A stretch of 64,000 nt of DNA from Rhodobacter capsulatus (GTDB lineage: Bacteria; Pseudomonadota; Alphaproteobacteria; Rhodobacterales; Rhodobacteraceae), in assembly GCF_003254295.1 (NCBI RefSeq), contig NZ_QKZO01000002.1, positions 204,820 to 268,819 of the forward strand, read 5' to 3'. The position numbers and the translations under genes are program-made. Shown piece after piece: positions 12,440 through 21,310 of this stretch. The notes beneath the pieces are model-generated. The model did not search any database. It saw nothing but the letters and a program-made list of their open reading frames with translations, and was not told the origin of the DNA. Numbering within the stretch: the first letter of the stretch is position 1; each line of letters starts with the position of its first letter.

Positions 12440-16716
<4,277 letters not shown>

Positions 16717-16718
16717 AT

Positions 16719-16733
16719 GTTCTTAAAATGTTC
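16719..16733 (+). promoter_or_regulatory. LexA (SOS) box GTTC-N7-GTTC
   Basis: GTTCTTAAAATGTTC is an exact match to the alphaproteobacterial LexA operator GTTC-N7-GTTC described for Rhodobacter. It directly touches a TTGACG -35-like hexamer (16734-16739). A second, closer pair GAAC-ATGA-GAAC follows at 16749-16760. The box lies 55 bp before the start of the 40-codon gene, a normal operator position, so that gene is probably repressed by LexA. Confidence 0.75.
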
Positions 16734-16787
16734 TTGACGCATCGGCTGGAACATGAGAACAAAATGGCAACAGGAAGGAGACCTGAG

Positions 16788-16910
16788 ATGCAGCACCGTC
16801 CGACCCCGTTTTTCGCCCGTGAGACCGCCGAATTGGCGCAGGATATGCTCGGGGCGCTGTCGCTTTGCGCCACTTTCCTTGCCGTGCTTTACTTGCCCGG
16901 CCTGTTCTGA
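16788..16910 (+). CDS. 40-residue single-span membrane protein, predicted SOS-induced
   Basis: This short frame (MQHRPTPFFA start, LYLPGLF end) has a strong ribosome-binding site GGAAGGAGA 7 bp before its ATG, a LexA box upstream and a strong terminator downstream, so it is a complete one-gene transcription unit. Residues 1-20 are polar and helical (RETAELAQDML) and residues 21-38 form one hydrophobic segment that could span the inner membrane. The layout is that of Caulobacter SidA, a tiny SOS-induced inner-membrane protein that blocks division through FtsW, or of other SOS division inhibitors. I cannot show sequence homology to SidA; the link is by size, topology and regulation. An upstream in-frame ATG at 16764 would place the ribosome-binding site inside the gene and is less likely. 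Confidence 0.7.
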   Translation: MQHRPTPFFARETAELAQDMLGALSLCATFLAVLYLPGLF

Positions 16911-16994
16911 CCGTCACTGCCACGCGCTTTCGCGACCCTGACGTCACATCACGGCCGCCTGTCCCCAAGGGCTTTGCCCGGAAAGCGCTTCCTG

Positions 16995-17025
16995 CGCCGC
17001 CATCCCCGGATGGCGGCGTTTTTTT
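16995..17025 (+). terminator. intrinsic terminator
   Basis: Perfect 11-bp arms (16995-17005 and 17008-17018, CGCCGCCATCC/GGATGGCGGCG) are followed by seven T residues. It ends the transcript of the 40-codon gene. Its T-run overlaps the last codons of the convergent chemoreceptor gene. Confidence 0.92.
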
Positions 17026-18433
17026 ACAGCCGATAGGCCAGACGCAGCCCGCCCCAATGCCGCCCGGAAACGAAGATCGGCGCCGAGAGATCCTTCATCA
17101 GCACGAAATTGCCGCCGCCCATGTCGCGCCGGTAGATCTGCAACAGGAAAGGCGCGGTCGATTGCCCGGCGCGCAGCCCGACGCGGTCGTTGAAAATGCG
17201 CCGGTTGCGGCAGTTCGCGGCGTTCCAGACCGGGTCCGGCCCCTGCGGCTGCGAGAATTTCCGATTGTGCGTCGGCAGATAGCCGTTGCGATCGACGGCG
17301 GCGCAAAACACGATCTCAGGCGAGAGGCTCAGCACCCGTTCCTGCACCGCGGGCAGAACGGCGTCGGTGAAGCCGGTGAAGGGCGCCATCACCTGCGCCG
17401 GATTGCTGCCCGCGATCGGGCTGTAACGCGCCTCGAAGAGCGTGCCCGCATTGATCCGGCCCGCGGAAATGCCCGCCTCGAACAATTGGCCCACCTCTTC
17501 GGCGGCGGATTTCACCGCCTCGATGAAGGTATTGTCGGCCAGCGCGCCGCCCAGCTCGACCGCCTCCTGCACGATGGTCTCGCCCGCGATGATCAGGGTC
17601 CGGGTCTTTTGCGTCGCCGCATGCACCTCGGTCGAGGTTTGCTGCATGCCATCGGCCATGCGCCGGAACGCCGGGCCGAAGGAGGCATTGGCGCTGTTCA
17701 CCTCGGCGGCGCGGGTGGCGATTTCGGTCACCGCCGCGCGGGTCTGCGTCAGCCCGCCGAGCATCCGCCCAAGCGCCGCATCGGTGCCCGAGGCGCCGGT
17801 CAGCACCGCATCGGCATCGGTCGAAATCGCCCCGGCCTCGTCATGCAGGGCGCGGATCGAGCCGGTCAGCCCGCCCACGGCACTGCCGATCCCCTCGGAG
17901 GCGGCGGCGGTCTTGCGCGACAATTCGTTGATCGCCTCGGCCACGACGGCAAAGCCGCGGCCCGCGTCGCCCGCCCGGGCCGCTTCGATTTTCGCGTTGA
18001 TCGCCAGGATGTTGACCTGCATCGCCACGGATTTGATGCCGGCGTTTTCCGCCTGAACCCGGGTCAGGGTCGCGTTCAGCTCCTCCATCCGCGCGATCGC
18101 CGAGCGCACCCAGCTGGCAATCGTCTGCGCATGGGCCGAGGTCTCGCGCAGCTGCGCCGCCGTCTCCTCGACCATGCCCAGCGTCGCATCGGCGCTCTGG
18201 CCGACGCGCTGCGCGCCATCCAGCACCCGGGCATTGGCGTCCTGCACCGTCTCGGCCGCCGTCTGCGCGCTGCGCAACAGCGCAAGCTGCGAATCCGCAA
18301 GCTTTTCCAGCGCCTCAAGTGCACCGGCCACCTCGGCGACATCCCGGCCGAGATCGAGCGCGTCGGTCGCGATGCGGGTGATGCGCCCTTCGGAGCTGGT
18401 CGGAAGGGACGGGGAGGGAGCGGGCTGGGTCAT
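17024..18433 (-). CDS. soluble chemoreceptor-like protein with C-terminal sensor domain
   Basis: The 469-residue product has a methyl-accepting-type coiled-coil signalling domain with its hairpin tip at about residues 141-170 ([15 protein letters not shown] then GRGFAVVAE). There is no signal peptide and no hydrophobic span, so it is cytoplasmic. The signalling domain is N-terminal and a globular domain of about 150 residues follows (from about residue 310), with a conserved-looking end [21 protein letters not shown]; this resembles the C-terminal Cache-like region of some proteobacterial receptors. This order is the reverse of normal receptors. It may signal to a cytoplasmic chemotaxis cluster. 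It follows the IscU-like gene by 66 bp on the same strand. Confidence 0.8.
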
Positions 18434-19641: not shown

Positions 19642-20586
19642 TCAGGGCGTGGTCCGGCTGAAACTGTCGCAGGCCGTGACCTGGCCGGTCTTGAAGCCCT
19701 GGGCGAACCAGAACTGGCGCTGATCCGAACTGCCATGGGTGAAGCTGTCGGGCATCGGGCGGCGGCCCGCATGGCGCGCCAGCGTGTCATCGCCGATCCG
19801 CGCCGCCGCCCGCATCGCCTCGGCCACGTCGCCGCGCTCGAGCGTGCCGAGATCCGCGGCGGCATGATGCGCCCAGACCCCGGCGAAGCAATCCGCCTGC
19901 AGCTCGAGCCGCACCGAAAGCGCATTCGCCGTGGCCGGGTCGGCGTTCGCGCGCGCGGCCTCGACCCTGTCGAGCAGGCCAAGCTCGTCCTGCACGCGAT
20001 GCCCGATCTCATGTGCCACCACATAGGCGGCGGCAAAATCGCCCGCGGCGCCAAGCTCTTGCGAGAGCCTGTCGAAAAAGGCCGTGTCCAGATAGACCTT
20101 GCCATCGGCCGGGCAGTAGAACGGGCCGGTCGCCCCCGAGGCGGTGCCGCAGGGCGAGCGCGTCAGCTGCGAAAACAGCACCAGAACCGCCGGGTGATAG
20201 ACCCGCCCCAGATCGTTGCGGAAGATCCCGGCCCAGATCTCCTCGGTATCGGCCAGCGTCACCGAGACGAAATCGCCCATCGCCCGGTCGCGCGCGCTCA
20301 GCGCGCCGCCGTCTTCCACCTGCGGGGCCGTCCCGCGCGGCAGCCCGTCACCGTGCAGCCCGTCCCTGTGCAGCCCGTCGCTGTTCAGAAGCGGCGTCAG
20401 ATCCACCCCGAAGACCCAGCCCGCCAGCACCAGCGCCAGAAGGCCAAGCCCGCCCGCGCCGCCGGGCGAGATCCGCCGCCCGCCGCGCCGGTCTTCGATA
20501 TTGTCGCCGCCGCGACGGTCTTCGATATTGTCGCCGCCGCGCCGGTCCTCGATGTTGTCGCTGCCGCGACGGCCTTGCCACCTCAT
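19642..20586 (-). CDS. YpfJ-type neutral zinc metallopeptidase
   Basis: The 314-residue product matches the YpfJ family. The N-terminus MRWQGRR leads into repeats of SDNIEDRR, then a glycine-rich linker, one membrane span near residues 40-56 and a periplasmic peptidase domain. The zinc motif is VAHEIGHRVQ, preceded by a TAFFDRLSQELGA-type helix, and ends with SDQRQFWFAQGFKTG. The start at 20586 fits the family. Two low-complexity expansions stand out: the N-terminal EDRR motif is present three times, and the linker has GLHRDGLHGDGLPRG. Substrate is unknown. Confidence 0.9.
   Translation of the reverse strand: MRWQGRRGSDNIEDRRGGDNIEDRRGGDNIEDRRGGRRISPGGAGGLGLLALVLAGWVFGVDLTPLLNSDGLHRDGLHGDGLPRGTAPQVEDGGALSARDRAMGDFVSVTLADTEEIWAGIFRNDLGRVYHPAVLVLFSQLTRSPCGTASGATGPFYCPADGKVYLDTAFFDRLSQELGAAGDFAAAYVVAHEIGHRVQDELGLLDRVEAARANADPATANALSVRLELQADCFAGVWAHHAAADLGTLERGDVAEAMRAAARIGDDTLARHAGRRPMPDSFTHGSSDQRQFWFAQGFKTGQVTACDSFSRTTP
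20483..20563 (-). repeat. three tandem 27-bp repeats within the zinc peptidase gene
   Basis: Units at 20483-20509, 20510-20536 and 20537-20563 encode the nine residues G-(G/S)-DNIEDRR. The first two units are nearly identical at the DNA level and the third, nearest the start codon, has diverged. Typical YpfJ proteins carry one copy, so this is a local expansion in the cytoplasmic tail. Confidence 0.85.
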
Positions 20587-20725
20587 CGCGCCCCTCCCGA
20601 TCACGGTTGCGAAATTAGCCCCGCAAAGCCGCCCCGGACAGGGGGAAAACGTCGCGCCCCGGCTTGACGCCGCCCCCCCGCCTTGCGATGCACGGCCAGG
20701 ATGCCGGAACCAGCCGCGGGGACCC

Positions 20726-21310
20726 ATGTTCGAACGACTTTACCGCTGGACCCTCGGATTGGCCGGACATCGCCGCGCGGATTGGGCGCTTGGGGTCATT
20801 TCCTTCACCGAAAGCTCGTTCTTTCCGATCCCGGCCGATGTGCTTTTCGTGCCGATGGCGCTGGCGCGGCCCGAAAAGATCTGGCGCTATGCGCTGATCG
20901 CCTCGGTCACCTCGGTGCTGGGCGGGATCTTCGGCTGGTGCATCGGTCATTACGCCTTCGACCTGCTGGCGCGGCCCTTCCTGGAAGCGACGGGCAAGAT
21001 GGCGACCTTTGAAGCCCTGAGCGACGGCGCGGGCACCTGGGCGATCCTGCTCATGCTGGTCACCTCGGGGCTGGCGCATATCCCGCCGATGAAGGTGGTG
21101 ACGATCCTTGCGGGGGTGCTCAGCTTCGATCCGGTGCTGTTCATCCTCTCGGCCATCGTCGCGCGCTCGGCGCGGTTTTACGGCCTTGGCTGGCTGCTGG
21201 CGCGATTCGGCGAACGCATCGCCAGCTTTGTCGAGCGCCGTCTGGCCTGGGTCGCAGGCGGGGTGCTGCTTGTGCTGGCCGCGGCCTGGTTTGCCCTGAA
21301 AGGAGCCTGA
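20726..21310 (+). CDS. YqaA/DedA-type (SNARE-associated) membrane protein
   Basis: The 194-residue product is an inner-membrane protein of the YqaA/DedA type. It has the re-entrant core FTESSFFPIPADVLFVPMALA near residues 27-47, four further hydrophobic segments and a GIFGWCIGHYAFD loop. The family works in membrane lipid flipping and homeostasis, though the substrate of YqaA-like members is not settled. Its stop lies 2 bp before the dsbB start, so the two are cotranscribed. Confidence 0.88.
   Translation: MFERLYRWTLGLAGHRRADWALGVISFTESSFFPIPADVLFVPMALARPEKIWRYALIASVTSVLGGIFGWCIGHYAFDLLARPFLEATGKMATFEALSDGAGTWAILLMLVTSGLAHIPPMKVVTILAGVLSFDPVLFILSAIVARSARFYGLGWLLARFGERIASFVERRLAWVAGGVLLVLAAAWFALKGA

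Follow-up and report, generated by a model that had tools for sequence, protein, structure and literature searches.

Among the closest described systems is SidA of Caulobacter crescentus, which the cited reports present as an SOS-induced protein of 29 amino acids that acts on FtsW (PMC4211646, PMC12700426). In the Firmicutes, YneA of Bacillus subtilis is described as an SOS-induced, single-span division inhibitor that interacts with FtsW. An RNA product is known from Klebsiella pneumoniae, where the small RNA DinR is reported to be cut from the 3' end of the LexA-controlled dinI mRNA and to repress ftsZ (PMC10907235), and SOS peptides of the TisB/DinQ type are reported from E. coli (PMC8145889, PMC3567139). 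The locus described here, from the alphaproteobacterium Rhodobacter capsulatus, shares with SidA a LexA box of the GTTC-N7-GTTC type, a tiny protein predicted to span the inner membrane once, and the class; with YneA it shares the single span and, to judge from the LexA box, SOS induction. It differs from SidA in that the microprotein of the Rhodobacter family is usually 40 residues long (40 in 104 of 141 modelled loci, range 31-50, one length of 32 being cut off at the locus end) and carries a structured 3' RNA, and from YneA, which is a Firmicutes protein; both likenesses are of description. Like DinR, the RNA belongs to a LexA-controlled small-protein mRNA, and pairing with the ftsZ leader is a predicted candidate here; unlike DinR, it has a stem-closed fold that recurs across a bacterial family.

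The window, that is, the whole stretch of 64,000 nucleotides that was analysed, carries the unit on its plus strand at positions 16719-17025. The upstream neighbour, outside the LexA unit, is recG, a 697-aa open frame on the same strand (14623..16716, stop TAA at 16714-16716). The unit begins with the LexA box GTTCTTAAAATGTTC (16719..16733), an exact GTTC-N7-GTTC, which directly adjoins the -35-like hexamer TTGACG (16734-16739). This hexamer, a 17-nt spacer and GAGAACAAA (16755-16763) make up the promoter core (16734..16763), where a sigma-70 scan called no promoter; we infer that GAGAACAAA, which contains an inverted LexA half-site, is the -10 region. There follow the ribosome-binding site AGGAAGGAG (16772..16780) and the 40-codon open reading frame (16788..16910, stop included; ATG at 16788, TGA at 16908-16910), whose product is MQHRPTPFFARETAELAQDMLGALSLCATFLAVLYLPGLF. 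An intrinsic terminator closes the unit (16994..17025, stem 16994-17019, T run to 17025). Terminator-like sites are found at the level of shuffled sequence (1 against 1.2), so all that lends the terminator weight is where it lies and that relatives have it too; a script finds terminator-like ends in 114 distinct tails among the 141 modelled loci. The sequence-only reading had described the box, ribosome-binding site, frame and terminator behind recG, and all are present on direct inspection. To these our analysis adds a conserved structured RNA, which occupies 16911-16993, the interval from the stop codon to the terminator. Further along the window, at 19642-20727 on the minus strand, lies a frame that by eye we guess to be metallopeptidase-like, with a threefold repeat around RRGGDNIED in its N-terminal part.

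The microprotein is conserved well beyond the species. A search with the window protein finds a match in 18/18 genomes of the genus (E <= 0.01), and a profile of 28 members (A1) matches 342/394 genomes of the family, or 341/393 when counted by genus; a single-sequence search of the family had reached 15/198 genomes only. Loss of the frame among relatives, which had been named as a possible refutation of the gene, thus did not occur. As read from the match rows, 11 of the 342 positive genomes have two matches and the others one. The genomes with two are G046, G013, G061, G087, G105, G248, G263, G309, G358, G398 and G399. In the class as a whole, 8/385 genomes match, five of them being family members and the other three marginal (E 0.004-0.006); these three are the only matches outside the family among the class genomes searched, a further difference from SidA. 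Fifty-two family genomes lack a profile match; 20 of these were listed and the recG end was readable in 16. Behind recG, 11 of these 16 apparent absentees have, by position and by eye, a LexA-type box as well as a small, divergent frame, and the other five have no box or small frame there. The LexA box was found at 0/8 recG ends outside the family. The unit is apparently ancestral in Rhodobacteraceae and retained by most of its members, and we infer vertical descent of the gene.

Selection on the frame is that of a protein. Among 96 distinct 40-codon frames, 76 closer pairs, not independent since close relatives are among them, give a pN/pS of 0.29 in frame, against 1.28 and 2.53 when the reading is shifted by one and by two bases. 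All 96 frames keep D19 and G22 and 94/96 keep P37, and no frame (0/96) has K or R after residue 19. The layout is a basic N-terminus, an uncharged helix at residues 20-36, Pro37 and a hydrophobic end, and AlphaFold2 predicts a single helix at residues 8-39 (mean pLDDT 77). The N-terminus is most likely inside. The window protein has no profile match in Pfam, NCBIfam or PHROGs, and the microprotein has none among solved structures; the 28 members give a single marginal match in NCBIfam (NF007711, E 0.0043) and a single one in PHROGs (phrog_35731, E 0.046), each for one member. That the LexA-box microprotein is a real gene is near certain.

The bare LexA box is a poor guide by number. It is matched twice in the window, where 1.26 matches are expected, and the genome has 82 matches where the reversed pattern gives 77; with counts at background level, box counting was dropped as evidence. 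Its position is another matter. Among the protein-search matches listed (L018-L080), the window's own included, are 54 distinct loci, and a box of the form GTTC-N7-GTTC or GAAC-N7-GAAC lies at most 140 nt upstream of the frame in all 54, where shuffles predict 0.3; every listed locus thus has the conserved promoter box that marks members of the alphaproteobacterial LexA regulon. The unit as a whole exceeds chance, with the box in 54/54 listed loci and the frame conserved as a protein. The frame stands directly behind the recG C-terminus in 52 of the 54. In the remaining two, L025 and L026, no recG occurs in the upstream bases examined (635 and 1,479, respectively) and the box is kept in both, which suggests that the unit does not need recG.

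The promoter gives a similar picture. The pattern GTTCTYAWAAWGTTCTTKAC-N14-18-GAGAACAAA occurs in at least 118 stretches of genome contigs, 80 of which were examined; from their titles we take the listed ones to belong to Rhodobacteraceae genera or to unclassified alphaproteobacterial or Rhodobacterales genomes. In 79 of the 80 listed loci recG lies upstream of the promoter, the remaining one being at a locus edge, and the profile finds the microprotein frame in 78; the two without a profile match are L182, cut by the locus end, and L120, with a 31-residue form. Viral contigs lack the pattern. Judged from these sequences, control of the unit by LexA in cells is very highly probable.

Elsewhere in this genome, boxes precede recA, lexA, an impB/mucB-type polymerase, uvrB, a radical-SAM protein and a PAS-HisKA-REC kinase; these genes come from five of 15 loci inspected, which had been picked from among the 82 box sites for the most part because their spacers are A/T-rich. 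The kinase is a hybrid kinase that, from its architecture, we presume to be of CckA type. The LexA-type box GAACGTAACGAGAAC (L362:1477-1491) lies 115 nt before it, in accord with the report of a LexA site at cckA in R. capsulatus, unlike Dinoroseobacter, that is cited in PMC6473078. Another box, GTTCAAAAAAAGTTC (L094:1501-1515), has an all-A/T spacer; 40 nt on from its first base starts a 199-aa frame, possibly a further SOS gene.

Among the matches listed, the stretch from stop codon to terminator is conserved as well. With the terminator excluded, the cores of 100 loci (a non-independent sample, as it contains close relatives) fold with a median z of -2.43, 60% of them below -2; in two controls of 99 loci each the median is -0.06 for recG coding sequence and -0.16 for sequence further downstream. 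The long form of the RNA has UUUCUGCC unpaired, followed by an outer stem and three hairpins whose loops carry CUGUCCC, CUGCCU and UGCCUC, and then by the terminator. A sequence-only alignment of 87 tail RNAs yields no common fold except the terminator; the structure was therefore named by hand, from single-sequence folds of 12 close sequences, and extended by covariance search. The resulting model R1 matches 73/96 sources at E <= 0.1, the 12 included, and all 73 matches lie on the same strand and at most 150 nt past the stop codon. In the alignment of these 73 sequences (A3), double-sided changes occur in 33/34 pairs, little in excess of the 27.5 seen in shuffles; the cells with double-sided pair changes number 444, against 116 in shuffles and 80-114 when the structure is slid, and paired cells make up 88.7% against 66.9%. 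A3 contains the 12 seed sequences and was fitted to the structure, which biases the covariation counts towards that structure. At gathering score, Rfam has no match in window 16600-17100 or in 10 relatives, and the one sub-threshold match that overlaps a tail is to sX13, in that of L057 (24.2 of 50 bits, E 0.93). On this evidence the tail RNA is, with good confidence, functional in the family.

What the function is can be read in two ways. The protein alone could matter, with the tail serving the processing or stability of its own mRNA and having no role in trans. R1 matches only 33 of 120 whole family genomes searched. Consistent with a tail of this kind, each of the 33 has a single match, and in 25/25 of those where the place of the ORF was available the match lies directly behind it; the RNA is also short in Rhodobacter, and in G083 it has no CTGYC. 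The loop motifs, needless in a pure stability hairpin, argue the other way, being kept and multiplied, with 3.66 CTGYC per core against 0.84 in shuffles (100 loci). We consider a tail with such a role only to be rather unlikely, and lean slightly towards the tail RNA acting in trans.

The window itself has the short Rhodobacter form of the RNA (16911..16993, plus strand), the structure of which comes from relatives, the window's own evidence being weak. Its outer stem GCGCUUUC/GAAAGCGC pairs 16924-16931 with 16981-16988; CTGCC lies ahead of the stem (16917-16921) and CUGUCCCC inside it, with the motif CTGTCCCC at 16959-16966. In 20 relatives of the short type the outer stem is nearly invariant, so that covariation in it is thin. 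The window RNA folds with a z of -2.9 with the terminator and -0.8 without. R1 leaves the window copy undetected at E <= 0.1, and model R2, built from the 73 sequences, recovers 16914-16993 only at E = 3, as the second of three window matches. Of 53 further sources, R2 matches 31 at E <= 1 and, more strictly, 18 at E <= 0.1; the short-type loci L036 and L030 are among these matches. Of its rows with a modelled frame, 28/29 lie directly behind that frame. Because position, motifs and intermediates agree, we take the window copy as a reduced member of the tail RNA.

Since DinR represses ftsZ, we examined ftsZ as a candidate target. The ftsZ gene of Rhodobacteraceae has an atypical ribosome-binding site, ACAGGCGG, in 18/26 readable leaders (CAGGCGG in 22/26), against 6/340 background leaders, five of these six being ftsZ. 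It occurs in 0/16 ftsZ leaders outside the family, and in 5/10 readable leaders from family genomes without a protein match. The motif was chosen after inspecting the leaders, so these counts are no blind test. The tail RNA carries CCGCCUGU (in Rhodobacter) or CUGCCUGU, which can form an 8-base pairing with ACAGGCGG. In the window the candidate pairing segment is ACGGCCGCCUGUCCCC (16951..16966, plus strand), which includes the palindrome CGGCCG; opposite positions -46 to -31 of this genome's ftsZ leader it forms 15/16 pairs, a compact duplex stronger than that of any of 55 background genes, and is suggestive only.

Across 10 genomes the compact duplexes are uneven: the fraction of the background at least as strong is 0, 0.79, 0.86, 0.07, 0.34, 0.04, 0.03, 0.23, 0.25 and 0.81, ftsZ being among the strongest in four and weak in three. 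The background was drawn from the surroundings of recG and ftsZ, 25-55 script-called genes in each genome, and ftsZ itself may be among them. On average a matched leader gains 0.98 kcal/mol over the leaders of other genomes. Whole-core duplexes, ranked in 6/10 genomes in which ftsZ was recognised, are unremarkable (7/30, 8/32, 13/27, 23/30, 12/27 and 26/33). Only some of five loop segments tested beat their reversed controls. For CCGCCTGTCCC the reversed controls favour ftsZ too, but less (median fraction 0.128 vs 0.034), and for TTTCTGCCTGCG the reversed control is equal (0.071 each). Co-occurrence is broken in both directions, in that G056 has the ftsZ motif and no unit behind recG, and G083 has the unit and no CTGYC. 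That ftsZ is a target of the tail RNA is accordingly a doubtful proposition.

Before ATG, ACAGGCGG has 27 occurrences in this genome, against five for the reversed pattern, which likewise speaks against ftsZ as the target, and ACAGGCGGN3-9ATG is commoner than its reverse in most of 31 family genomes. Because of this excess, ACAGGCGG may represent a distinct class of ribosome-binding site in the family. Further upstream, several ftsZ leaders (L260 and others of L247-L273) also contain GGGAC(A/G)G; these shared leader features stand independently of what the SOS RNA does.

The reading that best accounts for the locus is a LexA-controlled checkpoint transcript with two products, which we judge to have about an even chance of being right. 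In undamaged cells, LexA on the box beside the -35 hexamer would repress the unit. On DNA damage, RecA would trigger cleavage of LexA and one short transcript would be made. The 40-residue protein would insert into the inner membrane, most likely with its N-terminus inside, and would most likely restrain a division or cell-envelope membrane protein until repair is done. The remainder of the transcript would fold into the stem-closed RNA, with repeated CUGCC/CUGUCC segments in its loops, and would most likely act on ribosome-binding sites in the manner of a small regulatory RNA, ftsZ being the leading candidate. The parts of this reading differ in strength. Observed here are the gene, its box and promoter layout, conservation, selection and, in the family, the RNA structure; LexA regulation in cells, membrane topology, division arrest and the action of the RNA are deduced. 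The earlier description of the product as an SOS-induced, SidA-like membrane protein stands as to a gene with a LexA box, a predicted one-span microprotein and family-wide conservation. As a tiny one-span protein under a LexA box, its membrane insertion being predicted, the product may work like SidA, to which it is likened by description and not by sequence. Division arrest by the microprotein, argued from this analogy, falls a little short of an even chance. It is improbable that one SOS transcript carries two arms against division, the microprotein acting on the divisome and the RNA loops shutting off ftsZ translation.

A microprotein of this kind could instead tune another inner-membrane process of the damage response, such as transport, respiration or gene-transfer-agent release. 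The sequence names no target, and the invariant D19 and G22 suggest that there is some partner; nothing direct speaks against such a role, and only by analogy do SidA and YneA, which control division, point elsewhere. We hold such a role unlikely. TisB and DinQ are one-span toxic peptides under SOS control, and a peptide of their kind would depolarise the membrane or slow growth (persistence), with no specific division stop. Size, single span and SOS control, here the LexA box, are shared with them. The microprotein gene differs from theirs in being widespread and held at one chromosomal place, usually behind recG and mostly with one match per genome; no antisense partner is known for it, Rfam giving no match at gathering score in 16600-17100; its helix has no K/R, and a family member searched against 72,556 plasmid and 50,697 phage records has no match, all of which makes a depolarising or growth-slowing peptide still less likely. 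That a chance frame and box in the 3' flank of recG make up no gene at all, as the background-level count of bare boxes might suggest, is practically excluded by the conservation in genus (18/18) and family (342/394), the pN/pS of 0.29 and the box at 54/54 listed loci.

We found nothing in the open-licence literature that identifies the factor halting division in DNA-damaged Rhodobacteraceae, and no paper on this locus in the literature searched, which was mostly non-subscription. A gene that looks damage-induced, encodes a predicted membrane microprotein and ends its mRNA in a conserved folded RNA is a good candidate for holding back cell division while repair proceeds. A gene of 40 codons that is present in 341/393 sampled genera can still escape protein-family libraries, and a candidate LexA-controlled RNA is added with it. 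If the reading with two arms against division were true, a bifunctional checkpoint RNA would be conserved across a bacterial family, and translation would be shut off as well for some other genes that share the atypical ribosome-binding site of ftsZ. For the question of how Rhodobacteraceae respond to DNA damage, the analysis offers one conserved locus for deletion.
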